Below are positions 15,267 through 31,663 of a stretch of 64,000 nt of DNA, one piece after another; the stretch's first letter is position 1, and every line of letters starts with the position of its first letter. The DNA comes from Sulfitobacter sp. 20_GPM-1509m (GTDB taxonomy: Bacteria; Pseudomonadota; Alphaproteobacteria; Rhodobacterales; Rhodobacteraceae): contig NZ_JIBC01000004.1 in the NCBI RefSeq assembly GCF_000620505.1, positions 310,001 through 374,000 on the forward strand, read 5' to 3'. Made by a program: the position numbers and the translations under genes. Under the pieces are notes generated by a model, which worked only from the letters and a program-made list of their open reading frames with translations, was not told where the DNA came from and ran no database searches.

Positions 15267-16187
15267 CTACGGATCTGTACCCGCAGCAGCTGGGGGGAGG
15301 TTTTGCGGGACGGGTTCCTGCATCGAAATGATCTGGTCCTTGCGCCCCGAACTGCCGCGGATGATACGGACGCTGGGCGGCGCGGGTGGCGGTGCAGCGC
15401 GTTGCGCCGGAAGGCCGGAAATCTGTGTGGACAGCATGGGCGCATCGTCGACGATCATCGGCATGTCGTCGTTGCTCTGATCGCTGAGCACCAGGATGAG
15501 ATCACCGGTGTGTCTGGCCAAAGTCAGCATTTTTGCGCCCTCGGGGTGCAGCTCCAGCGTGATCGCACGCGGCAGGGCGGCGTTGGATTGTCCTGCCGGC
15601 TGGTCTGTTCCGATCACGCGCACATTGCGCAAAACCGTGCGGACGGCGCGGACCCCGTCAGAGCTGTTGTAGGACACCATCACGTCAATCTTGTCCTGCA
15701 CGCCAATCAGCCCGGCAACGGCCGTTTCGCCGGTCAATGGCAGAGCAATCGCGCGCATGCCCGGTCGAAGCGATTCTGACGGGCCAGTGGGCTCAATCGT
15801 GGGTATGACTTGTTCCTGCACAACCTCAGGGTGTTTTTCTTCTTTAACGAGAAGATCCGCTTTGACGAATGGTGTGCCGCCGGGAATGGTCCTATTGGTG
15901 GAAACCTTCACCAAAGCCTCGCGGTTTTCTGGCGTGTCCGCAATAAGGTCTTTTCCGGCCTGATCTATTTCCATTTTAACAGGTATTAAAATATCTGCGG
16001 AAATAGACGCCCCCAATTCTATTGTTTGATTTGAGAACAAATAGGCCTCTTTCGGCACAACAGGAACAACCGTTGCAGCGACCGCCCTTGGGGGCGTTGG
16101 TTCAGGCGTATTGTTCGCCTGAACGCCGACCCATGCGACACCGGATGCAAGCACCAAGGAGATCAATATCACAGTAAACGTGCGCAT
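15267..16187 (-). CDS. cpaB: CpaB/RcpC pilus assembly protein
   Basis: 306 residues with an N-terminal membrane anchor (FTVILISLVLASGVAWVGV), a Pro/Thr-rich linker and a SAF/CpaB domain (AYLFSNQTIELGASISADILIPV...). The domain includes MRAIALPLTGETAVAGLIGVQDKIDVMVSY, typical of Flp pilus CpaB. It is periplasmic and probably contacts the secretin. It sits between flp and cpaC with a 20-base gap to cpaC. Confidence 0.9.
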   Translation of the reverse strand: MRTFTVILISLVLASGVAWVGVQANNTPEPTPPRAVAATVVPVVPKEAYLFSNQTIELGASISADILIPVKMEIDQAGKDLIADTPENREALVKVSTNRTIPGGTPFVKADLLVKEEKHPEVVQEQVIPTIEPTGPSESLRPGMRAIALPLTGETAVAGLIGVQDKIDVMVSYNSSDGVRAVRTVLRNVRVIGTDQPAGQSNAALPRAITLELHPEGAKMLTLARHTGDLILVLSDQSNDDMPMIVDDAPMLSTQISGLPAQRAAPPPAPPSVRIIRGSSGRKDQIISMQEPVPQNLPPAAAGTDP

Positions 16188-19772: not shown

Positions 19773-21011
19773 TCAAGCCTTTGCAAGTTGGGGGCCGAAG
19801 GCCTGTGAGAGGGCGGGAAGCGAGGCGCCGACCATCAGGATGGTCGCGGTGATGGCATAGCCGGTGGCCACGGCGACAAGGCCGAAGGGCGCGAGGGCTG
19901 CGGTGTTCAGCATCAGGGCGGCGGTCATGGCGGCCGTGACCCAGAATTCGCGGTGGGCACGGCCCGTGGCGCGCAGCCAGCCTGCGGTGGCGGACCACAG
20001 GGTTGTGGGGATCGCCACCAGACAGAGGATCGACACGATGTCGTCGATGCCCGACCAGCCTGCGCCAAAGAGGACCGGCACGTAATAGGGCGCCAGCAAG
20101 GCCTGGGCGACGACGGCGGGCGTGATCAGCCCCATGGCCAGCAGGATGCTTTGACGCAAGGCCGCGTTCTTGTCCGCGCTGGCACACAGATGCGGGAACA
20201 GCACGGTGGAAAAGGCGACCGAGAAGGAATTGGCCAGGCTGAGGCCCGCGTTGAAGGCCATGAAATACAGGCCCAGTGCCTCGGCCCCCATCAGCGTGCC
20301 GACGATCAGCTTGTCGGCTTGCAGGCGCAGTGCCTTGACCAGTTCCACCCCCAGCACGGCCCAGCCGAAGCTGAGGAAAGGGCGCAGCGGCGCGCGGCCT
20401 TGCGACAGGTCCAGCGTCCAGGGGTGCAGGCGGCGCATGGCGATCAGCCAGAACGGAGCGGTCAGCAGACGCGGCAGGATCAGCGCCAGCGCCGAGGGCC
20501 AGACCAGCGCCAGCAGCGCGGACAGGATGTTCGCCCCCACGATCTGCGCGCCCGAGATCGCCGCCGTCTGGCGCAGCTTGCCTGCACGCATCGCCAGCGC
20601 GGTTTGCACCAGCCCTGCGGGCATGAACAGGTATTCGCCCGCCAGCAGCAGGATCAGCGCCAGCAGGACCGCGTTGCCGTTGGCGGCGTAAAGCGCAAAG
20701 CCGATGGCGGATTGTGCCACAAAGAGGCCCACACACCAGACCCAGAAGATGCGGTGCGCGGTGGCGCAGGTTTGCGGCAGCTCGGCTTCGGGGGCCGCGA
20801 TGATCTTTTGGCCCACACCGTTTTCGGTCAGCGCCTTGAGGATGTCAGCCGCCGCCAATGCCGCCGCCGCCAGGCCGATCTGGGCCAGGTCCAGCGACCG
20901 GGCCACTGCCACGACAACCAGCAACCGCGACGCCTTGGCCGCCACTTCGGAGGCGCCATAGGCAAAAAGGTTCTGTGCCATGCGGGAAGTCTTGTGGATT
21001 GCTGCGGGCAT
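19773..21011 (-). CDS. Wzx-like polysaccharide flippase
   Basis: 412 residues from the ATG at 21011; a TTG at 21023 would add four. About twelve hydrophobic segments with the MATE/MOP-type polysaccharide_synt pattern, including AAALAAADILKALTENGVGQKII and SFGWAVLGVELVKALRLQADKLIVGTLMG. It should move undecaprenyl-linked repeat units across the inner membrane for polymerisation by the ligase/polymerase-like protein at 30374. It is the first gene of the leftward transferase operon and divergent from the Wza-like gene. A candidate operator lies between at 21111-21128. Confidence 0.82.
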   Translation of the reverse strand: MPAAIHKTSRMAQNLFAYGASEVAAKASRLLVVVAVARSLDLAQIGLAAAALAAADILKALTENGVGQKIIAAPEAELPQTCATAHRIFWVWCVGLFVAQSAIGFALYAANGNAVLLALILLLAGEYLFMPAGLVQTALAMRAGKLRQTAAISGAQIVGANILSALLALVWPSALALILPRLLTAPFWLIAMRRLHPWTLDLSQGRAPLRPFLSFGWAVLGVELVKALRLQADKLIVGTLMGAEALGLYFMAFNAGLSLANSFSVAFSTVLFPHLCASADKNAALRQSILLAMGLITPAVVAQALLAPYYVPVLFGAGWSGIDDIVSILCLVAIPTTLWSATAGWLRATGRAHREFWVTAAMTAALMLNTAALAPFGLVAVATGYAITATILMVGASLPALSQAFGPQLAKA

Positions 21012-21110
21012 TTCGGGGTCCAATCAAATCTGTTGAACCCTTTGTATCGTTGGCGATTGCCCGCTGTCTTGGACGCCACAGGAGAGGAAAAGGGCGCAAC
21101 AGAATGGCAT

Positions 21111-21128
21111 CATATCCGAAAGGATAGG
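21111..21128. promoter_or_regulatory. EPS-box copy 1 (flippase / Wza divergent promoter)
   Basis: CATATCC-GAAA-GGATAGG, a copy of the palindrome CCTATCC-N4-GGATAGG with one mismatch. It lies about 86-100 bp from both divergent start codons. Two direct copies of CAAGGATAGTG (21189-21199 and 21202-21212) also carry GGATAG half-sites, and the second contains the likely ribosome binding site of the Wza-like gene. Confidence 0.65.
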
Positions 21129-21213
21129 TGCGTGGACGCCAACGCACCCTCGACCCGTTGACGCGAAGTGCATAACAATGATTCAACTCAAGGATAGTGC
21201 CCAAGGATAGTGA

Positions 21214-22422
21214 TTGAGCGTGATGATGAAAAAGAGCTTCGGATTTGGATCGGTTCTGATGGCCACGATGGCTCTGGGCAATTGCGCGGGCCTGGACACG
21301 CCGGACAACCTTGAGCCGATTGCCGCAGGCGACGGCTATCAGGCACAGTACCGCGCGCCCGATGTCAGTCGCGGCAATGCGCAATTCCTGCGATCCGAGG
21401 CGATCAACGCGCAGAAGTGCCGCCCGCCCAAGGGCGGCATTGCGGGCAAGGGATCGGGGCTGGCGGCCAATGCGCTGCGCGGCGAGCGGGTGACGCGCAA
21501 CGATCTGGTCGATGTGCGCATCGGCGACGATGACACGTTCAACGGCGATTACGTGGTGTCCCGTGACGGCACGATCAAGCTGCCGTTCCTGCCGCCGATC
21601 CGCGCGCAGGGGCGCCTGACCAGCGAGATTGAAAGCGACATTGCAAGCCAGTTGATCGCCGGGGATTTCTTTGTGGACCGCCCGCGCATTTCGGTGCGGG
21701 TGGCTGATTTCGCCTCTGTTACCGTCGGCGTGTCCGGTGCCGTGTTCGAGCCGCGCACCGTCGAGATCGGCGGCGTGCCCGGCGATCAGGTGGACAGCCG
21801 CCGTCAGGGGGCCTTGGGGGCCTCGACCGAAGCGCGCAACCTGTCGGCGGCCTTGCGGGCGGCGGGCGGCGTGCGGCCCGATGCGGATATTTCCGCGGTC
21901 GAGGTGCGGCGCGGCGGGCAAATGTACGTGCTGGACATGCGCGGCGTGTTCGAGGGGCAGAATGCCGTCGACATCATGCTGTTGACCGGCGACGAAGTGT
22001 CCGTGCCCAGCCGCGGGTGTTTCCAGGAGGACCTGATGCGCCCCAGCCCGATCAGCCCACCGGGGGTTTCACTGTTCCTGTCGAACCTGACCCAGCCTGC
22101 TGCGGGCAATGCCCTGTCCGCCGTGGGGCGCGATGTGCGCGAGATCCCTTATGGCACGCGCTATCTGCAGGCGGTCATCAACACCAACTGTGTGGGCGGC
22201 GCGCGGGCGACCAGCGCGCACCGGTCGTCGGTGCTGTTCTCGCGCAATCCGGTGACGGGGGTGTCGGTGGTGATTGAACGCGACATCGAGAACCTGCTGC
22301 GGCGCGCGGATCGGGATGACTATGACCCCTACCTGCTGCCGGGGGATTCCATCGCCTGCTATGACAGCACGATCACCAACATCGGTGAGGTTGGCAGGGT
22401 TCTGGGACAGCTCGCGCTGTAA
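21214..22422 (+). CDS. Wza-like polysaccharide export protein
   Basis: 402 residues. Signal peptide followed by NCAG, so probably a lipoprotein although the lipobox is not ideal. A poly_export domain (residues about 95-180, VSRDGTIKLPFLPPIRAQGRL) is followed by SLBB-like segments. It should form the outer-membrane export channel for the polysaccharide. The TTG at 21214 is chosen because AGGA is six bases upstream; in-frame ATGs at 21223 and 21226 are alternatives. It stands alone in the plus direction and meets the histidine kinase gene tail to tail after eight bases. Confidence 0.83.
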   Translation: MSVMMKKSFGFGSVLMATMALGNCAGLDTPDNLEPIAAGDGYQAQYRAPDVSRGNAQFLRSEAINAQKCRPPKGGIAGKGSGLAANALRGERVTRNDLVDVRIGDDDTFNGDYVVSRDGTIKLPFLPPIRAQGRLTSEIESDIASQLIAGDFFVDRPRISVRVADFASVTVGVSGAVFEPRTVEIGGVPGDQVDSRRQGALGASTEARNLSAALRAAGGVRPDADISAVEVRRGGQMYVLDMRGVFEGQNAVDIMLLTGDEVSVPSRGCFQEDLMRPSPISPPGVSLFLSNLTQPAAGNALSAVGRDVREIPYGTRYLQAVINTNCVGGARATSAHRSSVLFSRNPVTGVSVVIERDIENLLRRADRDDYDPYLLPGDSIACYDSTITNIGEVGRVLGQLAL

Positions 22423-22430
22423 CGCGGGCT

Positions 22431-24938
22431 TTAGCTCTCGCGCGTGCTGCCGCGCCGCTCGGCGCTCATCTGCGGGCGAGTCGCGGACCAGACGGCAGGC
22501 AGCTGGTCGATGGCCTGAACCATCTTCGCGGTGTCGTCTGCCTTGGCGGCGGTTTCGACCGCGATCAGCGCCGCACGCAGATCAACCGCACCCAAAGCCG
22601 CAGAGCTGCCGGCGATGCGGTGGGCGCGTTGGGCGATTTCCTCGGTCGTGTGATGCGCGTGGTCTTGCAGATAGGCAATGGTGTCCGCGACCTCGGTGGC
22701 ATAGCGCGCCAGCAGTTTGGCCAGCGCGTCGACCCCCAGCGTGTCGCGCAGATCGTCCAGATAGGCAAAGGCGACAGCGCCTGCCCCCTCACCCGCCGCA
22801 CCGGAGGTTTGCTTGCCGGAGACCACCTGATTGGCGATAACGCGCATCAACCCCTCGCGGCTCAGCGGTTTGGTCAGGATGTCGTTCATGCCATCCGACA
22901 GGAAGGCCTCTTGCTCGTCGGCCATGGCATTGGCGGTCAGGGCGACAATCGGGGTGCTGGCGCTGGCACCTGTGCCTGTGCGAATGGCGCGGGTGGCGCC
23001 GCGTCCGTCCAGCACCGGCATACTGATGTCCATCAGGATCAGATCGAACCGGTGCCCCTGTGCCAGATCGACGGCAATCTGGCCGTTGTGCGCCTCGGTC
23101 ACCTTGTGCCCTGCTGACAGAAGCATCTCGCGGGCGACCACGCGGTTGATTTCATTGTCTTCCACCAGAAGGATGTCGCTGGGGCGGGCATTTGCCTGTG
23201 TCGCACGCTGGTCCTGAACCGCTGTGGGTGGTGCCACGGGTTCGATCGGCAGGTGGATGGCAAAAGTGCTGCCCTTGCCCTTTTCGCTTTCCACGGTGAT
23301 CGTGCCGCCCAGCGCCTTGACGAAGCGTTGCGCGATGCCCAGCCCCAGCCCTGTGCCGCCCACGTCGCGGTCATAAGAACTGTCACCGGTCATGAAATCG
23401 TCGAAGATCTGCGCTTGCAGGTTGGCATCCATGCCGATGCCCGTATCGCTGACGGTGATCTGCAGGATCGGTCCGACGGCCGGGTCGTTCGCAACCTCGG
23501 TGTTCACCAGAACACGGCCATTGCGGGTGAATTTGACCGCGTTGCCGATCACGTTCATCAGGATATGCTGAATGCGGTCGCGGTCGGCGCGTATCCAATC
23601 GGTCCGGTCCCCCGTCCAGCCCCATTCCAGCGTGGTGTCATTGGCCAATGCCGCGCCGCTTTGGTTGTCGATGATGTCTTGCAGAAGATCGCTGAAATTC
23701 ATCACCACGGGCCGCAGGCGCAACTTGCCCGCGTCGTATTTGGTGATGTCCAGAACATCCGAGATATGGCTCATCAGCAGCTTGCCCGAGGTGTCCATAT
23801 TCTTGATATAGCGTGCCTGTTTCGCGCTCAGTCGGGTGTCGCGCAACAGGGTCAGGTTGCCCAGAAGGCCGTTCAGGGGCGTGCGGATTTCGTGGCTCAT
23901 GGTGGCCAGAAAATCCGTCTTGGCCTTTTCGCCGGCCAATGCGCGGTCGCGGGCGACGACCAGTTCGCGTTCGGACAACACCCGTTGGGAAATGTCGCGC
24001 AGGAATGCGATGAAAATTTCACCCTCGTCCGTGCTGGCCGCCTGGATTGCGAATTCGACCGGGAAAATATCACCGTTGGCGCGTTTCGCTTCCAGCTTGA
24101 TGCGCCCCTTTCCTACCACGTTGCGCGGACCACCTGTGCGCACGCGCTGCATACCCGCCTCGTGGGCTGCGAGGTGATGGTCGGGCACGATCAATTGGCC
24201 CAGATCGCTGCCGATGGCATCTTCGGATTTGTGACCGAACATCTGCTCGGCCGCCGCGTTGAACACCAGAATACGCCCCTGCGCGTCGCTGACGATGACC
24301 GCATCAAGCGCCGTATCGGTGACGATGTTCATACGCGCGCCCGCCTCTATCGCCTCGGCGCGGCGTTTGACGTTCTGGGCGTTCAAGCGCCCCAGGTAGG
24401 CGGCAAGAAAGACCAGGACCAGCATGAGAAAGGTCACGCCTGCGGCCAGTTGCGTCAGGGTGACCGAGATGCTGCTGCGGCGTTGGTCGGAATCCAGGGC
24501 AAAGTAGTTCAGACCCGAATTCGCGAGCTTGCGCACGTTGGGCCGCACTGCGTTCGTCCGTTCCAGCAGATCGGGCAGCGCAAGGATCAGGTCCGGGTCG
24601 CTGGCGTCGATGGCGCTGATCGAGCGGTCCAGAAAGGTCTGCACGATGCGCAGGTTGCGGGAAAATTCGGGCAGGTCCCGCAGGCTGGCATAGATCGAGG
24701 CCTGTCCCAGCGTGTTGATCCGGCTGTAGAAGATATCGAACTCGCGCCGCAATACCTTGAGGTCCGGCACGGGTTCGGTGGTGGATTCGGACAGGTGCAT
24801 CTGGAATTCGAGGAATTCCACCTCGGCCTGCGAGAGGGTCCATTGCACGTTGTCCGAGCTGGCCGAGTTCAGCAGCTTCAGGTCGCGGGTGACATTGCTG
24901 GACAACAAGACGATACCGGCAAGGCCAATCGCCCCCAA
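22431..24938 (-). CDS. Hybrid histidine kinase (HK-REC-HPt)
   Basis: At least 835 residues. In order: a membrane helix at the extreme N-terminus, a helical periplasmic sensor (about 20-155), a second membrane helix (161-184), a PAS domain (about 200-320), HisKA with His349 (ATMSHEIRTPLNG), an ATPase domain (MNVIGNAVKFTRNG, GIGMD, GGTGLGLGI), a receiver (LLVEDNEINRVV...LILMDISMP) and a C-terminal HPt domain (AQRAHRIAGSSAALGA). The start is odd. The listed TTG cuts into the first membrane helix, and the frame stays open upstream to about 25037, encoding RARLIAFLLL, without ATG, GTG or TTG. It likely feeds the NarL-type regulator at 28211. Confidence 0.85.
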   Translation of the reverse strand: MGAIGLAGIVLLSSNVTRDLKLLNSASSDNVQWTLSQAEVEFLEFQMHLSESTTEPVPDLKVLRREFDIFYSRINTLGQASIYASLRDLPEFSRNLRIVQTFLDRSISAIDASDPDLILALPDLLERTNAVRPNVRKLANSGLNYFALDSDQRRSSISVTLTQLAAGVTFLMLVLVFLAAYLGRLNAQNVKRRAEAIEAGARMNIVTDTALDAVIVSDAQGRILVFNAAAEQMFGHKSEDAIGSDLGQLIVPDHHLAAHEAGMQRVRTGGPRNVVGKGRIKLEAKRANGDIFPVEFAIQAASTDEGEIFIAFLRDISQRVLSERELVVARDRALAGEKAKTDFLATMSHEIRTPLNGLLGNLTLLRDTRLSAKQARYIKNMDTSGKLLMSHISDVLDITKYDAGKLRLRPVVMNFSDLLQDIIDNQSGAALANDTTLEWGWTGDRTDWIRADRDRIQHILMNVIGNAVKFTRNGRVLVNTEVANDPAVGPILQITVSDTGIGMDANLQAQIFDDFMTGDSSYDRDVGGTGLGLGIAQRFVKALGGTITVESEKGKGSTFAIHLPIEPVAPPTAVQDQRATQANARPSDILLVEDNEINRVVAREMLLSAGHKVTEAHNGQIAVDLAQGHRFDLILMDISMPVLDGRGATRAIRTGTGASASTPIVALTANAMADEQEAFLSDGMNDILTKPLSREGLMRVIANQVVSGKQTSGAAGEGAGAVAFAYLDDLRDTLGVDALAKLLARYATEVADTIAYLQDHAHHTTEEIAQRAHRIAGSSAALGAVDLRAALIAVETAAKADDTAKMVQAIDQLPAVWSATRPQMSAERRGSTRES

Positions 24939-25048
24939 GAGGAGGAAGGCGATCAGCCGCGCGCGGTATCCCTTGTTGTTCGAGAGGTGCAGAGCAATGT
25001 TCCCGTTGTTGGAGGTCGTCAGAGTGCAACGCGCCGGTTAAGGCAAGT

Positions 25049-25555
25049 CTAGTCCAATGCCTCGATCCGGTCGAGTTGCCAGATGCTGCGCGAATAGATC
25101 ACTTCCGAGCGGTAGGCCGCATCGCTGTCATAGGGGTAGACGATCCACAGCGGCCCCTTGTCGCGCACCGACATCGTGGCGTCGTCCATCTTGTAGGCGA
25201 CGATCGGGCCGCCCTCGACAGCGTCGGTCAGCGGAATGTCCACGGCATAGTCGTTGATTGCCGTGGCGCGCAGGGTCTCGCCCGTGATCCCCAGACGGTC
25301 GGCCAGCACCTTGAGCGACACCCCCTGGAATGTGTGGGTGCCTTCGCTCCAGATGGTCGAGGTCTCGAACGTGGTGGCGTCGAGCTCTTCCAGCATATCC
25401 AGGTCGAATTGCGCGGTGTTGTCCACGTTGGTGGTGGCGATCTGGCCCGACACGGTCAAGATCACATCGCCCTCGGGCGCTGCAAGGTCTTGCGCGAAAA
25501 GCGGCAGCGCACTGAGGGCGAGGGCGGCTGTGGCGTGAGTGAGGTGGCGAAGCAT
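25049..25555 (-). CDS. Small periplasmic protein with molybdopterin-oxidoreductase-like fold
   Basis: 168 residues with a signal peptide (ATAALALSALPLFAQ). The remainder resembles the oxidoreductase molybdopterin-binding (YedY/sulfite oxidase) fold: VILTVSGQIATTN, WSEGTHTFQGVSLKVLADRLG, YAVDIPL and GPLWIVYPYD. It is much shorter than catalytic family members and has no cysteine in the mature part to hold molybdenum. It is probably a ligand-binding derivative. It lies directly upstream of the hybrid kinase, in the same direction, and has a candidate operator 79 bp before its start, so it may be the kinase's periplasmic sensing partner (inference). Confidence 0.72.
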   Translation of the reverse strand: MLRHLTHATAALALSALPLFAQDLAAPEGDVILTVSGQIATTNVDNTAQFDLDMLEELDATTFETSTIWSEGTHTFQGVSLKVLADRLGITGETLRATAINDYAVDIPLTDAVEGGPIVAYKMDDATMSVRDKGPLWIVYPYDSDAAYRSEVIYSRSIWQLDRIEALD

Positions 25556-25633
25556 GATTAACGTCCCATGAGTGGTGTTGGGACCTGTATGACGGAAAAC
25601 TGCGCCGTCCGCATCAGGTCAGAGGGATAGGCA

Positions 25634-25651
25634 CCTATCCGAAGGGATAGG
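25634..25651. promoter_or_regulatory. EPS-box copy 2 (upstream of the periplasmic protein and kinase genes)
   Basis: A perfect CCTATCC-GAAG-GGATAGG palindrome, with an extra GGATAGG half-site at 25625-25631 so that three heptamers alternate in orientation. It is 79 bp upstream of the start at 25555, and the galU stop lies on the other side, so it acts on the sensor/kinase unit. Confidence 0.7.
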
Positions 25652-25658
25652 TGTCGGT

Positions 25659-26546
25659 TCAGGCAGCGTAGGACATCGGTGCGGTGCAGTCGTTCAGAAA
25701 CACGCCCAGTTCGCTTTGCAGTTCAGGCCGGTCCAGCGCAAAGGCAACGGTGGCCTGCACAAAGCCCTGCACGGAGCCGCAATCGAATCGCGTACCGTCA
25801 AAGCGGAACCCGGTGACGCCGGTGCGGTCCAGATCCGCGCTGATCGCATCGGTCAGTTGCAGTTCCCCGCCCGCACCCGGACCGATGTCGGCCAGACGGT
25901 CGAAGATCGACGGCTCAAGGATATAGCGGCCCACGATGGCGCTGGTCGAGGGGGCATTTTCGGGGCGTGGCTTTTCCACCAGACCGCGTGCCATCGCCAG
26001 ACGCCCCTGGGACCGGGCGACATCGAGGATGCCATAGGACGAGGTCGCAGCACGGGGCACCTCCATCGTGGCGACCATGTGCCCGCGATGCTCTGCATGG
26101 GCTGCCACCATCTGGCTCAGCGCGCCCTGGGGGCTGCGGATCACGTCATCGGGCAGCAGCACGGCAAAGGGTTCGTTCCCGATCAGACGCGCAGCCAGAC
26201 GGACGGCGTGGCCCAGACCCAGCGGATTGTTCTGACGGACAAAGGACAGTGCCCCTTCGGGCATGCGGGTGCGTTCGAGAGCCGCAAGTGCCGAGGTCTT
26301 GCCATTCGCGGTCAGGCGCTGCTCAAGAGCGGCGGCTGTGTCGAAATAGTCTTCCAACGCGCCCTTGCCTGCGGCGGTGACAAAAATGAACTCTTCGATC
26401 CCTGCGGCGCGGGCTTCGTCCACGGCGTATTGGATCAGCGGGCGATCGACCAGCGGCAGCATTTCCTTTGGGATGGATTTGGTGGCGGGCAGGAAACGGG
26501 TGCCCATACCTGCGACGGGGAAGACGGCTTTGCGAATATGTGTCAT
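25659..26546 (-). CDS. galU: UTP-glucose-1-phosphate uridylyltransferase
   Basis: 295 residues, standard GalU length. The nucleotidyltransferase signature MGTRFLPATKSIPKEMLPL at the N-terminus is followed by FILLP-type substrate motifs (FAVLLPDDVI) and VEKPRPENAPS. It makes UDP-glucose, the activated sugar for polysaccharide synthesis. It lies 27 bases after the fused transferase gene in a leftward operon. Confidence 0.92.
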   Translation of the reverse strand: MTHIRKAVFPVAGMGTRFLPATKSIPKEMLPLVDRPLIQYAVDEARAAGIEEFIFVTAAGKGALEDYFDTAAALEQRLTANGKTSALAALERTRMPEGALSFVRQNNPLGLGHAVRLAARLIGNEPFAVLLPDDVIRSPQGALSQMVAAHAEHRGHMVATMEVPRAATSSYGILDVARSQGRLAMARGLVEKPRPENAPSTSAIVGRYILEPSIFDRLADIGPGAGGELQLTDAISADLDRTGVTGFRFDGTRFDCGSVQGFVQATVAFALDRPELQSELGVFLNDCTAPMSYAA

Positions 26547-26573
26547 GGTTTTGGTCCTTTTGGTTGGGGTGAG

Positions 26574-27965
26574 TCAGTAGGCGCCACGGCCGGAGGTGAC
26601 CGCGCCAAAGGTTTTCAGGATGAGGATGAAATCGAGCATCAGGGTGCGGCTGTCGGCATAGGACAGGTCCATTTCGACCATCTGGTCAAAGCCGATGGTG
26701 GCGCGGCCCGACACTTGCCAGACACCGGTGATGCCGGGTTTGACCGCCAGACGGCCCAACGCGCGGGCCGGATAGGCCGCCACTTCGCACGGCAGTGCGG
26801 GGCGCGGGCCGACGATGGCCATCTCGCCGCGCAGCACGTTCAGGATCTGCGGCAGCTCGTCGATGGAAAAGCGGCGGATGAAGCGCCCGACACTTGTGAC
26901 GCGGGGATCGTGGCGGGATTTGAAGCACACGCCCTCGCGGTCGGACGAGGCCAGCAGTGCGTCGCGGCGTGTTTCGGCGTCGGTGGTCATCGAGCGGAAC
27001 TTGAAAATGCGGAACTCTTTGCCATCGCGGCCCACGCGGGTCTGGCTGAACAGGACCGGGCCACGGCTGTCGACCTTGATCGCCAGCGCCGTCAGGGCCA
27101 GCAGCGGCGACAACAGCACCAGCGCGCTGCCTGCGACGGTCACATCCAGGAACCGGCGTTGCACATCGGCCACGGGCAATTGGCCCAGGGCCTTGATGCC
27201 GGCGTGTGCCAGAAAGCTGGTGTTGCCTGCGAGATAGCGTTTGGCCATGCGGCGCGGTTCCTGCGCCAGACGCCAGACCCATTCAAGACGCGCGCGGCGG
27301 ACCGCCTTGGGGGCGCGCGACACGGTACCTGCGAGAAAGTCGAAGAGCGCGCCCACAGCCAGCGTCAGCGGTGCGTCGATCCGGTGGGCGTTTGCGTGCA
27401 GCCACAGCTCTTGCATCGGCACACCCAGCGCCACCAGCACGATGTCGGCGCCGCTGTCGTTGATGTCATGGATCACTGCGTCGGTGTCCGCGGCGCCGGC
27501 GAAACCATCGCGGGTGCCGGCGATGCGCAGACCGGGAATGGTGTTGGCCAGACGGTTGGCGGCCGCCTGTGCCGTGCCGGGGGTGCCGCCGAACAGATAG
27601 ACAGATTTGCCCATGCTGGCGGCCTGTGCCAGCAACGCGGGCACCAGATCGGTGCCGTTCAGATTTGCCGTCAGCCGTTTGCCGGTCATGCGGCCCGCCA
27701 GCTCAACCCCGATGCCGTCGGGCAACAGCATATCGGCGGTGGCCACCGCTTCCGCATAAGCTGCATCCCGGCGGTGGATATTGCAGCAGTGCGCGTTCAT
27801 GAAATAGGCGCGGCGACGGCCCGGAGCCAGCAGCGCCGCGATGGCCTGCGCCTGGGTCGCGTCGACCAGATCCAACCCCAAGGCGGACAGGTGCGTGGTC
27901 TTCAAAGAGGCCAGAGCGGCGGGCATGTAAAGCGATGTGTCGGTGGTAAAGGCAGCGTGTTTCAT
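26574..27965 (-). CDS. Fused WecG/TagA-type glycosyltransferase and undecaprenyl-phosphate sugar transferase
   Basis: 463 residues with two enzymes in one chain. Residues about 15-230 are a GT26 (WecB/TagA/CpsF) domain: AYFMNAHCCNIHRRD, MLLPDGIGVELAGR, VYLFGGTPGTAQ, DIVLVALGVPMQELW. Residues about 255-463 are a bacterial sugar transferase (WbaP/GumD catalytic part): a membrane helix, GPVLFSQTRVGRDGKEF, KFRSM, IRRFSIDELPQI and GPRPALPCEV. The C-terminal half attaches the first sugar phosphate to undecaprenyl phosphate; the N-terminal half could add the second sugar. The ATG at 27965 has AAGGA nine bases upstream. Confidence 0.88.
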   Translation of the reverse strand: MKHAAFTTDTSLYMPAALASLKTTHLSALGLDLVDATQAQAIAALLAPGRRRAYFMNAHCCNIHRRDAAYAEAVATADMLLPDGIGVELAGRMTGKRLTANLNGTDLVPALLAQAASMGKSVYLFGGTPGTAQAAANRLANTIPGLRIAGTRDGFAGAADTDAVIHDINDSGADIVLVALGVPMQELWLHANAHRIDAPLTLAVGALFDFLAGTVSRAPKAVRRARLEWVWRLAQEPRRMAKRYLAGNTSFLAHAGIKALGQLPVADVQRRFLDVTVAGSALVLLSPLLALTALAIKVDSRGPVLFSQTRVGRDGKEFRIFKFRSMTTDAETRRDALLASSDREGVCFKSRHDPRVTSVGRFIRRFSIDELPQILNVLRGEMAIVGPRPALPCEVAAYPARALGRLAVKPGITGVWQVSGRATIGFDQMVEMDLSYADSRTLMLDFILILKTFGAVTSGRGAY

Positions 27966-28059
27966 CGGGCAAGTCCTTGAGGTTGCAGAAGTTGCCTCAA
28001 GGTGACCGATGCCGGTTTTTCGCTCAACGGAGCGGACGGACAGTCGCACGCCACTTTGG

Positions 28060-28074
28060 TTAACGAACCGTTAC
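28060..28074. promoter_or_regulatory. Possible CtrA-type site, imperfect
   Basis: TTAA-N7-TTAC in the divergent region between the fused transferase and response-regulator genes. CtrA full sites are TTAA-N7-TTAA, so this is one base off. Supported only by the better site at 28896-28910 in the same locus. Confidence 0.3.
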
Positions 28075-28088
28075 AAGTGGAGTTAACG

Positions 28089-28106
28089 CCTATCCGGTCG
28101 GACAGG
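28089..28106. promoter_or_regulatory. EPS-box copy 3 (transferase / response regulator divergent promoter)
   Basis: CCTATCC-GGTC-GGACAGG, one mismatch to the palindrome. It lies 124 bp from the fused transferase start at 27965 and 105 bp from the response regulator start at 28211, so it could control both and give autoregulation. Confidence 0.6.
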
Positions 28107-28210
28107 GTGATATCCTGATGGGACCTGCATCCGCCACAAATATGCCTGAATTTCAGCGTGCAAGGTCCGCAATACATGTTTAGACATTGTGCTACTTAAA
28201 GGAGAACGAC

Positions 28211-28825
28211 ATGCGTGTTTTGATTGCGGACGACCACGACTTGCTGCGCGATACACTTGTGCTGTTTCTCGAAGCGCAAGGCGACATCGAAACCCGCACG
28301 GCGGCGGACCTTGCGGGCGCCTGCAAGCTGATCAAGGACGAGGACCGTTTTGATCTGGTGCTGCTGGATCTGAACATGCCCGGCATGAACGGGCTGGACG
28401 GGTTGAAACACGCGCTGGCGCTGGATGGCGGGCAACGTGTGGCGCTGCTGTCGGGCGAGGCGACGCGCGACATCGCCGAACAGGCGCTGGAGGCCGGTGC
28501 CGCCGGTTTCGTGCCCAAGACGCTGCCGGCCAAATCCATGATCAACGCGGTCAAGTTCATGGCCATGGGCGAACAATACGCGCCCATCGACTTTATGACC
28601 GCCGTCGACGAAACCGCCAAACATCCGCTGGCCGAAAAACTGTCGCCGCGCGAGTTGCAGGTGTTGAAAGGGTTGACCGAGGGCAAGTCGAACAAGGAAA
28701 TCGCCCGCGATCTGGACATCACCGAACCCACGGTGAAGCTGCATATGAAGACGCTGTACCGCAAGGTCGGGGCCGCCAACCGCACGCAGGCGGCGCTGAT
28801 CGCGCGCGAGGCGGGGCTGTACTGA
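28211..28825 (+). CDS. NarL/FixJ-family response regulator
   Basis: 204 residues. Receiver domain with acidic pocket ADDHD at residues 6-10, phospho-acceptor Asp53 (LLDLNMPGMNG) and the conserved lysine in GFVPKTLP. The C-terminal LuxR-type helix-turn-helix is LSPRELQVLKGLTEGKSNKEIARDLDITEPTVKLHMKTLYRK. The ATG at 28211 is preceded by AAAGGAG seven bases upstream. No kinase is adjacent; the HK-REC-HPt kinase 3 kb away is the obvious phosphodonor. It is the best candidate to bind the CCTATCC-N4-GGATAGG boxes, because NarL-type regulators bind inverted heptamers. Confidence 0.9.
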   Translation: MRVLIADDHDLLRDTLVLFLEAQGDIETRTAADLAGACKLIKDEDRFDLVLLDLNMPGMNGLDGLKHALALDGGQRVALLSGEATRDIAEQALEAGAAGFVPKTLPAKSMINAVKFMAMGEQYAPIDFMTAVDETAKHPLAEKLSPRELQVLKGLTEGKSNKEIARDLDITEPTVKLHMKTLYRKVGAANRTQAALIAREAGLY

Positions 28826-28843
28826 CCTATCCCGACGGATAGG
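28826..28843. promoter_or_regulatory. EPS-box copy 4 (upstream of the chain-length gene)
   Basis: A perfect CCTATCC-CGAC-GGATAGG palindrome beginning one base after the stop of the response regulator gene and 92 bp before the chain-length protein start at 28935. Confidence 0.7.
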
Positions 28844-28895: not shown

Positions 28896-28910
28896 TTAAA
28901 ACTTGGTTAA
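28896..28910. promoter_or_regulatory. CtrA-type site upstream of the chain-length gene
   Basis: TTAA-AACTTGG-TTAA matches the alphaproteobacterial CtrA full-site pattern TTAA-N7-TTAA and is preceded by another TTAAC (28890-28894). It is 25 bp upstream of the start codon, suggesting repression or cell-cycle gating. Confidence 0.45.
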
Positions 28911-28934: not shown

Positions 28935-30377
28935 ATGACACATCAAGACGCCACAGCATTCGCCCCCCCTGCCCCCGCCAAACGCCGCATTTCGATGCGC
29001 CGTATCCTGTTGGGGGGCCGTGTCAGCGACCTGGGTCGTTTCCCGCGCTACCTGGCCTTTGCGCTGATGGGCGGCACGCTGATCTGGGCGCCGATCACCG
29101 GCTATCTGCGCACCGCGCCGTTGTCGTTCAAATCGCAGACCTCGCTGATCCTGCCCGGCTCGGGCGCGTCGGCTTCGCTTAACCTGAACGGTATCGGACA
29201 GGCGTCGTCCTATGCCAACTCGGCCTTTTCCAGCAACTCGGTCAGCCCGACCGAGACCTACAAGCGGTTGATCGGGGCGGATCGTATTCTGGAGGCGGCG
29301 GCAACCTCGATGGGGCTGAGCCGTCAGGCCTTTGGCAAGCCGCGCATCAATCTGGTGGACCAGACCAGCCTGATCCATCTGGAAATGACCGGCGGCAGTG
29401 CCGAAGATGCACAGGCGCGCGGCGATGCCTTGCTGGCGGCGTTCTTTGCCGAGCTGGATGCACTGCGGGCCGATGAGCAGAACACCCGCGAAGACAGCGG
29501 TCTGGCCGCCATCGCGGATTACCGCAATTCGGTTGCCGCCACCCGTGCGGATATCGCGCGGTTGCAGGATGAAACGGGGCTGGTGTCCAGCGAGCAATAT
29601 GATGCCATGGTCGAGACCACCCGCCTGTTGCAAAGCCGCGTGCAGGATCTGGCGGCGACGCTGAGCGAAAAGACCCAAAGCGTGGCGTCGCTGGAGGCAA
29701 CTCTGGGCCTGTCGGCCAGTGCCGCTGCCGCCACGTTGAAGGTCTATGCCGATGCGCAGTTCCTGACGCTGACCGAAGAAGTGGGCACGCAGGCCGCAAA
29801 GCTGTCCGAGGCGCGGTCCCTGTTCGGGGAAGGTCACCCGAAGGTACAGGATGCCCGCGCAGCCCATGCCGCAGCCACGGCGGCCGCGTTGCGGCAGGCG
29901 ATTGCCGTGACCGGGCTGGATCAGAGCCAACTGAGCGGGCTGGATCTGGCCCCCGCAGGCGCGCGGGCTGAATTGCTGGCGCAATTGGTGCGGATGGATG
30001 CGGAGCGCGCAGGCATCGTGCAACAGCACGCGACCCTTTCGGCACGGCTGGCCGAAGATCTGACGAAACAACAGACCCTTGCCGCCGCCGCTGCACGGCT
30101 GCAGGACCTGCAACGCGATTTCTCGGTGGCCGAGGCGGTCTTTGCCACCGCCATCGCGCGCACCCAGTCGACCAAATCCGATGTCTACGCGTCCTATCCG
30201 CTGGTGCAGGTGCTGGAGAACCCGTCCCTGCCCGACCGCCCGTCGTCGCCCAACCGCAAGCTGGCAGTGGCTGCAGGCGGGGCTGCAACGATGATGATGT
30301 TGCTGGGCCTGATGCTGGGCTGGATGCGTTCGGCGCTGATCGGGCGGCTGGTCGGCCTGCGCAAGGCCGCAGCATGA
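28935..30377 (+). CDS. Wzz/GumC-like polysaccharide chain-length protein
   Basis: 480 residues. A cytoplasmic N-terminus is followed by a first membrane helix (about 40-55, LAFALMGGTLIWAPITGYL). A large periplasmic region with long coiled coils follows, including SRVQDLAATLSEKTQSVASL and EAVFATAIARTQSTKSD. A C-terminal membrane helix follows the proline-rich LENPSLPDRPSSPNRKL, the typical Wzz/GNVR exit motif. No tyrosine-kinase domain is fused. It should set polysaccharide length with the Wza-like protein. AAAGGAG precedes the ATG. Confidence 0.85.
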   Translation: MTHQDATAFAPPAPAKRRISMRRILLGGRVSDLGRFPRYLAFALMGGTLIWAPITGYLRTAPLSFKSQTSLILPGSGASASLNLNGIGQASSYANSAFSSNSVSPTETYKRLIGADRILEAAATSMGLSRQAFGKPRINLVDQTSLIHLEMTGGSAEDAQARGDALLAAFFAELDALRADEQNTREDSGLAAIADYRNSVAATRADIARLQDETGLVSSEQYDAMVETTRLLQSRVQDLAATLSEKTQSVASLEATLGLSASAAAATLKVYADAQFLTLTEEVGTQAAKLSEARSLFGEGHPKVQDARAAHAAATAAALRQAIAVTGLDQSQLSGLDLAPAGARAELLAQLVRMDAERAGIVQQHATLSARLAEDLTKQQTLAAAAARLQDLQRDFSVAEAVFATAIARTQSTKSDVYASYPLVQVLENPSLPDRPSSPNRKLAVAAGGAATMMMLLGLMLGWMRSALIGRLVGLRKAAA

Positions 30378-31663
30378 CACCGCAGAACGCCGCCGAGCGC
30401 ATGGTGTACCGCGCGATGGTCTACACCTGGCCGCTGTACGCCGTGGGCGCGCTGTATGTGGTCGGGCCGGTGCTGGCCTGGGTGCTGGGCGGCATGGCGG
30501 CGCTGGCGCTGTACCTGGGGCCTGCCATGCGCGCGGACCTGCGTGCGACGGGATCGGTGCCGCCGCTGGTCTGGTGCTGGTTCATCGGCATGTTCGTGAT
30601 GCTGGTGGCCCTGTGGGTGGGGCATCTGGACTGGGGGCTGGGGCTGAAACAGACGATCAAGTCGTCGATCGGCTGGGCCAAGGGCTGGGCCTTGCTGGCG
30701 CTGTTCCCGTTGGTGGGCGCTGTGCTGCCGATCCGGCGGTCGCTGTTGATCCGGGGGCAATGCGTGATCGGCGCGTGGACGCTCGCGCTGGCACCGCTGT
30801 TGCTGATCGCGCCCTATATCGGCCTGCCCGAGCGCATTTTTACCTCGCCGCTCAAGGCTGTTGGCGGGCCGGGGCCTGAGTATTTCTCGGTGTTCCTGTT
30901 CACTTACGATCCGGCCAGCTGGACACCACGGTGGCAGTTCTATGCGCCTTGGTCGCCCTTTGCCGCGCTGCTGGGCGTTGTCATGGTGCTTTTTGCGCTG
31001 GAGGAGAAAGACCGCAAATGGATGCTGGCCGGTGTGGGTGCGGGTATCCTGATGATCCTTGCGTCCAAGTCGCGGATGGGTCTGGTCGGGCTGGTGGCCT
31101 GCACCATCGCGCCGCGCATGATGCCGCTGCTGCTGAAAGGCTGGGCGTGGCACGTGACCGCCACCCTGACCGCATCGCTGGCGGTGCTGGGCACGGCGCT
31201 GGTTGCATTGGCCAAAGACGCGGTCGCCACATTCAAGGGCGCGCGCGCCGACAGCACCCGGGTGCGTGAAACCCTGCAACGCATCGCCTATGAACGCTGG
31301 CAGAACGAGGCAGTGTGGTTCGGTCATGGCACCATCCACCCCGGATCGCACGCGGTGGAATATATGCCCATCGGCAGCCATCACACATGGTATGGGTTGT
31401 TGTTCGTCAAGGGACTGGTGGGGTTTGCCGCACTTCTGGTGCCGATGGTCTGGCACACCTGTTTTGCGATGCTCGACGCCGCCCGCCACCCGCGTGGGCG
31501 GTTGCCGATGGGTATTCTGATGACCATCGTGCTGCTGTCCTTTGGCGAGAACCTGGAGATTGAGGCCTATATGCTCTGGCCCGGGCTGACGCTGCTGGGC
31601 GTGCATCTGCGCGAAGTGGCCCGGGACATCGAGGGCGAACCGGACGTGCAGCCGGAGCAATGA
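30374..31663 (+). CDS. O-antigen ligase / polymerase-like membrane protein
   Basis: 429 residues with about ten or more hydrophobic segments and a periplasmic loop containing WFGHGTIHPG and SHHTWYGLLFVKGLVGF, as in the Wzy_C/WaaL family. It polymerises or ligates lipid-linked polysaccharide at the periplasmic face. It overlaps the chain-length gene by four bases (ATGA), consistent with a Wzx/Wzy-type assembly pathway. Whether it is a polymerase (Wzy) or a ligase cannot be told from sequence. Confidence 0.82.
   Translation: MTPQNAAERMVYRAMVYTWPLYAVGALYVVGPVLAWVLGGMAALALYLGPAMRADLRATGSVPPLVWCWFIGMFVMLVALWVGHLDWGLGLKQTIKSSIGWAKGWALLALFPLVGAVLPIRRSLLIRGQCVIGAWTLALAPLLLIAPYIGLPERIFTSPLKAVGGPGPEYFSVFLFTYDPASWTPRWQFYAPWSPFAALLGVVMVLFALEEKDRKWMLAGVGAGILMILASKSRMGLVGLVACTIAPRMMPLLLKGWAWHVTATLTASLAVLGTALVALAKDAVATFKGARADSTRVRETLQRIAYERWQNEAVWFGHGTIHPGSHAVEYMPIGSHHTWYGLLFVKGLVGFAALLVPMVWHTCFAMLDAARHPRGRLPMGILMTIVLLSFGENLEIEAYMLWPGLTLLGVHLREVARDIEGEPDVQPEQ

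Follow-up and report, generated by a model that had tools for sequence, protein, structure and literature searches.

Pterin signaling through PruR proteins has been described in two arrangements. In the PruR-DcpA/PruA system of Agrobacterium tumefaciens, PruR is a periplasmic pterin-binding protein of the SUOX fold encoded in an operon with a WX7E membrane protein, and pterin-bound PruR lowers polysaccharide output (PMC13259868). The available part of the same 2026 review also describes PruR-linked "DTB" kinases with a WX7E motif, said to be widespread; one of these, from Ruegeria pomeroyi, has a PAS-HisKA-HATPase-REC layout. In that part the term "response regulator" is absent and no target genes or operator are named for the PruR-linked kinases. 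The present analysis concerns a locus of Sulfitobacter sp. 20_GPM-1509m, contained in a stretch of 64,000 nucleotides (the window), where pruR, a DTB-type kinase gene and the gene of a NarL/FixJ-type response regulator lie among exopolysaccharide (EPS) genes that carry a recurring palindrome, CCTATCC-N4-GGATAGG. PruR and the kinase type are already known; the regulator, its targets and its operator are proposed here.

The locus resembles PruR-DcpA in having a predicted periplasmic pterin-binding protein of the SUOX fold, encoded in a predicted operon with a WX7E membrane partner, and a proposed adhesive polysaccharide output. It differs in that DcpA turns over cyclic di-GMP, whereas the Sulfitobacter partner is a hybrid kinase with a proposed NarL-type transcriptional output. 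Ruegeria is a roseobacter too, and two of its loci (L050 and L055) are among the relatives fetched for comparison. As in R. pomeroyi, pruR lies directly upstream of the gene for a WX7E kinase with PAS, HisKA, HATPase and REC domains. The best NCBIfam match of this kinase is TorS (E 4.8e-109; 366 bits against a cut-off of 676). The TorT-TorS-TorR system joins a periplasmic protein to a hybrid kinase, and the Sulfitobacter locus likewise has a separate periplasmic partner beside its kinase, but that partner resembles PruR, and the regulator belongs to the NarL and not the OmpR type. Unlike the PruR-DTB systems in the available part of PMC13259868, the kinase adds an Hpt domain, and a regulator, targets and an operator are proposed. 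Literature searches gave no response regulator for a PruR-DTB-type system among the matches listed, which does not establish absence from print, and a text search with both motif halves gave no such regulator by title among the matches listed. The available part of a survey of Proteobacteria regulons (PMC5343134) lacks the terms exopolysaccharide, NarL and two-component.

The palindrome in the Sulfitobacter genome

A first-pass annotation of the window had reported four palindromes, two perfect and two with one mismatch, and a pattern search recovered all of them at the same coordinates (Table 1). It had also placed them in intergenic DNA only. All four lie between EPS genes. The whole genome (G000; 4,740,410 bases in 23 contigs) has no further match at one mismatch or fewer, a level at which the reversed control pattern has 0 matches there. 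About 0.86 such sites per genome are expected from base composition, giving a Poisson P of about 1e-12 for four within 13 kb; this estimate assumes a GC fraction of 0.61, that of the window being 0.63. With up to three mismatches the window contains 6 matches against 1.2 expected, a number reached in 0 of 100 shuffles. When up to two mismatches are allowed, the genome yields 14 palindrome matches and the control pattern 10, and the ten weaker palindrome matches accordingly look like background. Nine of these ten lie inside mechanical open frames of at least 60 amino acids. A wider regulon in this genome was considered and rejected; the ten extra matches have site-matrix scores of 5.5-17.8, under the value of 19.3 that marks the 10% point among the 106 A-type sites described below.

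The distance from palindrome centre to start codon is about 88 bp for pruR, 100 for wzz, 104 for wza, 108 for the flippase ATG, 114 for the regulator gene and 132 for the transferase gene. The range of 80-125 bp given in the first-pass annotation thus fits five of the six starts (about 88-114 bp), and the transferase gene falls outside it.

Table 1. Features of the pruR-kinase-regulator locus and its exopolysaccharide genes (window coordinates)
Feature	Coordinates	Strand	Basis or remark
Flippase (Wzx-like)	19773..21023	-	Pfam Polysacc_synt_3 6e-28; in-frame ATG at 21011
Palindrome CATATCC-GAAA-GGATAGG	21111..21128	strandless	one mismatch; between divergent flippase and wza genes
Wza-like polysaccharide export protein	21223..22422	+	Pfam Poly_export 6.3e-12
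Hybrid histidine kinase, DTB type	22431..24938	-	Pfam; periplasmic WX7E domain, PAS, HisKA, HATPase, REC, Hpt
PruR-family periplasmic pterin-binding protein (pterin binding predicted)	25049..25555	-	phmmer to PDB 7kos, E 5.2e-38
Extra half-site GGATAGG	25625..25631	+	adjoins pruR palindrome
Palindrome CCTATCC-GAAG-GGATAGG	25634..25651	strandless	perfect; upstream of pruR (minus strand)
GalU-like nucleotidyltransferase (presumed product name)	25659..26546	-	control gene; orthologue mapping
Fused WecG/TagA glycosyltransferase and Bac_transf phosphoglycosyltransferase	26574..27965	-	Pfam
Palindrome CCTATCC-GGTC-GGACAGG	28089..28106	strandless	one mismatch; between divergent transferase and regulator genes
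NarL/FixJ-type response regulator, proposed palindrome binder	28211..28825	+	Pfam Response_reg 9e-22, GerE 3.5e-21
Palindrome CCTATCC-CGAC-GGATAGG	28826..28843	strandless	perfect; between regulator stop codon and wzz
Wzz-like chain-length determinant	28935..30377	+	NCBIfam TIGR03007 E 1.1e-12, 47 bits, under cut-off 279
Polymerase/ligase-like membrane protein of the EPS cluster (presumed name)	30374..31663	+	0 NCBIfam matches

Conservation of the palindrome in relatives

The relatives are the best 80 of 508 confirmed loci with regulator relatives, 1.50 Mb in all. They come from Rhodobacteraceae genera or Rhodobacterales, except metagenome-assembled genomes labelled Alphaproteobacteria (L085, L094) and Acetobacteraceae (L069); the nearest is from Pseudosulfitobacter pseudonitzschiae (97% identity). 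With up to two mismatches the 80 loci contain 126 copies of the palindrome; two control patterns gave 8 and 9 matches. On regulator sequence the loci were split into 57 of A type, which are window-like, and 23 of B type.

Mapping of the genes over the relatives showed that the palindrome recurs in the same gene slots. Taking for each gene of the A-type loci the best site in its upstream 250 bp, with up to two mismatches, a site was found before pruR in 40 of 47, before wza in 23 of 32 and before the flippase gene in 23 of 31 (one shared site), before wzz in 21 of 32 (31 of 32 at up to three mismatches), before the regulator gene in 27 of 57 and before the transferase gene in 19 of 33. The control genes gave 1/53 for the kinase, 3/22 for galU, 0/32 for waaL, and 0/32 and 0/35 for the glycosyltransferases gt2a and gt2b. 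The distances from sites to start codons span a narrow range. Two counts weigh against the proposed operator role: at three mismatches the control gene waaL also has a site in 7/32 loci, and 30 of the 57 regulator upstream regions are without a site at two mismatches (19 with none, 11 with one of three mismatches). The autoregulation suggested by the first-pass annotation is therefore plausible and not universal, the regulator-upstream site being present in 27/57. The idea survived the refutation test set in that annotation, random occurrence elsewhere or lack of conservation before orthologous EPS genes: within its own genome the palindrome is restricted to the locus, and it is conserved before the orthologues.

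The 106 A-type sites give the consensus CCTATCC-GWWC-GGATAGG; they were chosen by a limit of two mismatches to the original pattern, which also fixes the N4 spacing. The pruR slot has a third half-site beyond its palindrome: in 44 sites of that slot the columns +22..+26, counted from where the palindrome starts, have the consensus TATCC, each column with 61-81% agreement.

The substitutions in these sites bear on the nature of the element. A palindrome could act as RNA, that is as a terminator, an attenuator or a protein-binding hairpin, and two of the copies are placed in a way that such a role would allow, 25634 just past the galU stop and 28826 abutting the regulator stop codon. The remaining two sit between divergent genes. 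Among the arm changes of the 106 sites, 73 are one-sided and break a pair, 20 give G-U and only 4 are two-sided and keep a Watson-Crick pair. The two-sided changes number 11 against 8.5 expected under independent arms. With compensatory changes so scarce, a simple RNA hairpin was rejected as unlikely, and an RNA role is highly improbable. Judged by its substitution pattern, the palindrome is a site that evolves as DNA and not as an RNA stem.

Several other conserved features were seen in the intergenic DNA. A block TGCGCC..CTCTCC..GGCGTCC.GGAC (flippase orientation) lies at 21060-21105 between flippase start and palindrome, with identity of up to 96% per column over 26 loci, and the operator does not account for it. 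Directly before wza, at 21190-21212, there are two direct repeats of AAGGATAGTG, half-site-like, and L015 has them likewise. In the gene for the fused transferase, the leader contains CTGTCCGTCCGCTCnGTTGAGCG (28021-28043, minus strand), conserved in the window and several relatives. A TTAA-N7-TTAA sequence before wzz at 28896-28910, which we take to be CtrA-like, was dropped as a part of the circuit because it is present in only 1/32 relatives (L015).

The regulator and its proposed pairing with the palindrome

The regulator consists of a receiver domain followed by a LuxR-type helix-turn-helix, and its best full-length matches of solved structure are ChrA, VraR and NarL. It shares with the NarL/FixJ/GacA regulators this domain order and, in its proposed site, inverted half-sites about one helical turn apart. 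It is not in the NarL orthologue group (NCBIfam NarL, 110 bits against a cut-off of 250), and its score with the NCBIfam GacA model is far under the cut-off. The classical NarL operator has TACYYMT heptamers in a 7-2-7 layout. Unlike it, the site has CCTATCC half-sites with N4 spacing within 18 bp, and the 106-site consensus matches neither the NarL heptamer sequence nor the 2-bp spacing. The first-pass annotation had pointed to the inverted heptamers bound by the NarL family; the site departs from their classical layout in sequence and in spacing.

The regulator and the palindrome occur together. Among 31 genomes of the family, the EPS ligase-like gene is found in 7 and an A-type regulator (at least 61% identity) in 8, and 7/7 genomes with the ligase-like gene have the A-type regulator (Fisher p 3e-6). 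All eight A-type genomes have a palindrome of at most one mismatch within 2 kb of a regulator gene; by locus the count is 8/9, with none at G005:C11. At the same stringency the 31 genomes contain 38 palindromes against 5 control matches, and 18 further genomes picked through loci contain 36 against 2. Genome G006 separates the parts. Its regulator-pruR-kinase trio lies inside contig C38 and its EPS genes inside contig C43, each more than 50 kb from the nearer contig end; C43 has no regulator homologue (E <= 1e-40), and palindromes are found at both places. The draft genome G004 (1160 contigs) retains the regulator, the EPS genes and the palindrome, and has no PruR hit. In a class-wide sample of 190 genomes, with at most 16 candidates scored per genome, close relatives of the regulator (E <= 1e-60) were found only in its own genome and in one genome of the same family.

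The site also changes with the regulator. In B-type loci the site lying between pruR and the regulator gene is altered; 12 of 15 PruR-adjacent B loci have a match above shuffles, and pruR there has a site of at most two mismatches in 5/15. Position 13 of the site is G in 103/106 A sites against 5/12 B sites, a comparison that is indicative only, as the two sets were picked differently, and this weakness counts against the pairing.

Linkage by itself is no proof of binding, and the palindrome might instead be bound by another regulator encoded elsewhere, the linked NarL-type protein having different targets. In this direction points an excess that the pairing leaves unexplained: an A-type regulator is lacking in 23 family genomes, which together have 13 sites of at most one mismatch, in 7 of the genomes, against 4 for the control. 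The excess is mainly in G001 (5 sites) and G024 (3), none of them beside a regulator homologue; in G011 one of the 13 adjoins a B-type regulator. Against a separate binder stand the palindrome near the regulator gene in 8/8 A-type genomes, its persistence in G004, which gives no PruR hit, and in G006, whose EPS genes are on a separate contig, its change together with the regulator subfamily, and the neighbors of the annotated distant sites, where no shared theme was found among 20 proteins beside 9 sites (10 stretches: L121, L125, L128, L134, L164-L168, L172). The distant matches lie mostly inside mechanical open frames, which tells little in GC-rich DNA; a true site in L127 does too. A separate binder is unlikely. 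The pairing of palindrome and regulator as operator and binder is well supported by these comparisons, and the palindrome is most likely the landing site of the neighboring NarL-type regulator. The polysaccharide regulon that the first-pass annotation assigned to the linked regulator gains support from the conserved slots and from the contig separation in G006.

Of the distant sites in regulator-bearing genomes, one (L128, 4259) has RTX/Hint proteins as neighbors and another (L166, 5924) a pair of Tad pilus proteins. These genes are possible extra members of the regulon.

PruR, the kinase and the proposed pterin input

The product of 25049-25555, called a periplasmic protein in the first-pass annotation, is by sequence match a PruR-type pterin-binding protein, and so represents an input side that had been missed. 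The match to PDB 7kos, "Pterin Binding Protein", spans residues 23-163 of 168. PDB 7kos is the Agrobacterium PruR, and its pterin-site residues are N102, Y104 and W160 in Agrobacterium numbering (PMC13259868, available part). The corresponding N101, Y103 and W159 are present in the window protein. In the relatives N is kept in 59/62, Y in 60/62 and W in 59/62, the deviants being L031 (N and W) and L057 and L072 (gaps). The length of 168 amino acids and an N-terminus that is hydrophobic by eye compare with a family criterion of about 170 amino acids with a secretion signal. Pterin binding is accordingly predicted by homology.

The kinase belongs by its domains to the DTB type. Its WX7E motif in the window reads NVQW-TLSQAEV-E, and its Hpt domain was detected at E 3.5e-6. 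In 74 aligned relatives the motif ends are W/E in 67, W/D in 5, F/E in 1 and a gap in 1, three of the 74 hits (L046, L051, L069) being merely 24-27% identical; a stricter text pattern for WX7E was matched by 45/74. The two genes lie on one strand, pruR before the kinase gene, in the order of the PruR-DTB operons, and form a predicted operon. The true start of the kinase is probably upstream of 24938. The frame at 24939-25030 (minus strand) has no ATG, GTG or TTG before the first membrane helix, and L015 is alike; L016 and L018 have a Met near that region. The start codon is likely ATT or CTG.

The 31 family genomes gave 25 PruR hits (E <= 1e-12), 18 of them at 44% identity or more; by coordinates, 16 of these 18 and 0 of the 7 weaker hits adjoin a regulator homologue (E <= 1e-40). 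Against a fixed pterin input, a PruR homologue is present in only 62/80 loci, some of the 18 others being cut by contig ends. Together with G004 these 18 loci indicate that the pterin input may not be obligatory.

Candidate pteridine reductases were sought in the same genome. Two proteins (L191 and L207) have the pteridine reductase motifs, TGX3RXG near the N-terminus and YX3K further on. Of the two, L191 (G000:C1:716200-716943) also gives the top TIGR02685 match, under the cut-off, and L207 is the weaker candidate. TIGR02685 itself was rejected as a marker because it is unspecific: of its 45 matches 0 are over the cut-off, and 13/14 control genomes also match. These 45 matches, in 39 stretches, were read in six frames, and TGX3RXG was present in four. 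The Sulfitobacter genome thus encodes a candidate pteridine reductase.

The kinase signal could feed the regulator while PruR senses a ligand other than pterin or serves only as a structural partner. The available text of PMC13259868 gives no ligand for any DTB system, and G004 has the regulator and the palindrome and no PruR hit. The conservation of the three binding-site residues and the candidate reductase of the genome argue the other way. This alternative is possible, at about one chance in four by our estimate, and sensing of pterin by PruR is preferred.

Gene content and portability of the cassette

The trio of regulator, pruR and kinase genes is not always found with EPS genes. Fifteen genomes were chosen for a locus without wzz or waaL. 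Fourteen of them lack the EPS ligase-like gene, and the one that has it contains a second, full trio-plus-EPS locus (L170). This absence speaks against a dedicated EPS function and suggests that the trio serves other purposes too. In L033 and L041 the trio lies beside DUF3131 and acyltransferase genes; a search for common cargo of EPS-less trios (20 proteins, 10/10 chosen loci) gave nothing consistent besides these two. The data suggest that the trio is a cassette whose tie to the EPS cluster is limited to a part of the family.

Homologues of the WecG/TagA-Bac_transf fusion are found in many EPS loci. A Flp pilus assembly protein (RcpC/CpaB) is encoded near the EPS cluster, at 15267-16187 of the window.

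A proposed circuit and its significance

The pterin-PruR-kinase input and the palindrome as operator of the 28211-28825 regulator probably form one circuit, a reading in which we have good, sequence-based confidence. A periplasmic pterin signal would act via PruR on the WX7E periplasmic domain of the kinase. Phosphate would pass along a His-Asp-His(Hpt)-Asp route to the regulator, and a regulator dimer would read the two inverted half-sites. Each of the four sites would serve one or two gene starts, six in all: those of flippase and wza, of pruR-kinase, of transferase and regulator, and of wzz. The regulator would thereby control the EPS operons plus its own module. We guess, with somewhat less assurance, that the phosphorylated regulator activates the EPS genes. 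In this proposal the chain from PruR through kinase and regulator to operator would tie EPS transcription to periplasmic reduced pterin.

Sulfitobacter belongs to a group of common marine bacteria. For marine Rhodobacteraceae we lean, by a small measure, toward a full transcriptional pterin circuit whose cassette has moved onto other gene sets, the operator drifting with the regulator. The locus offers a concrete candidate for the regulator, target genes and operator of PruR-linked kinases, and the operator consensus allows a search for candidate regulon members in related genomes. Surface slime would be coupled through the circuit to a redox-active metabolite, and so, plausibly, would biofilm and attachment.

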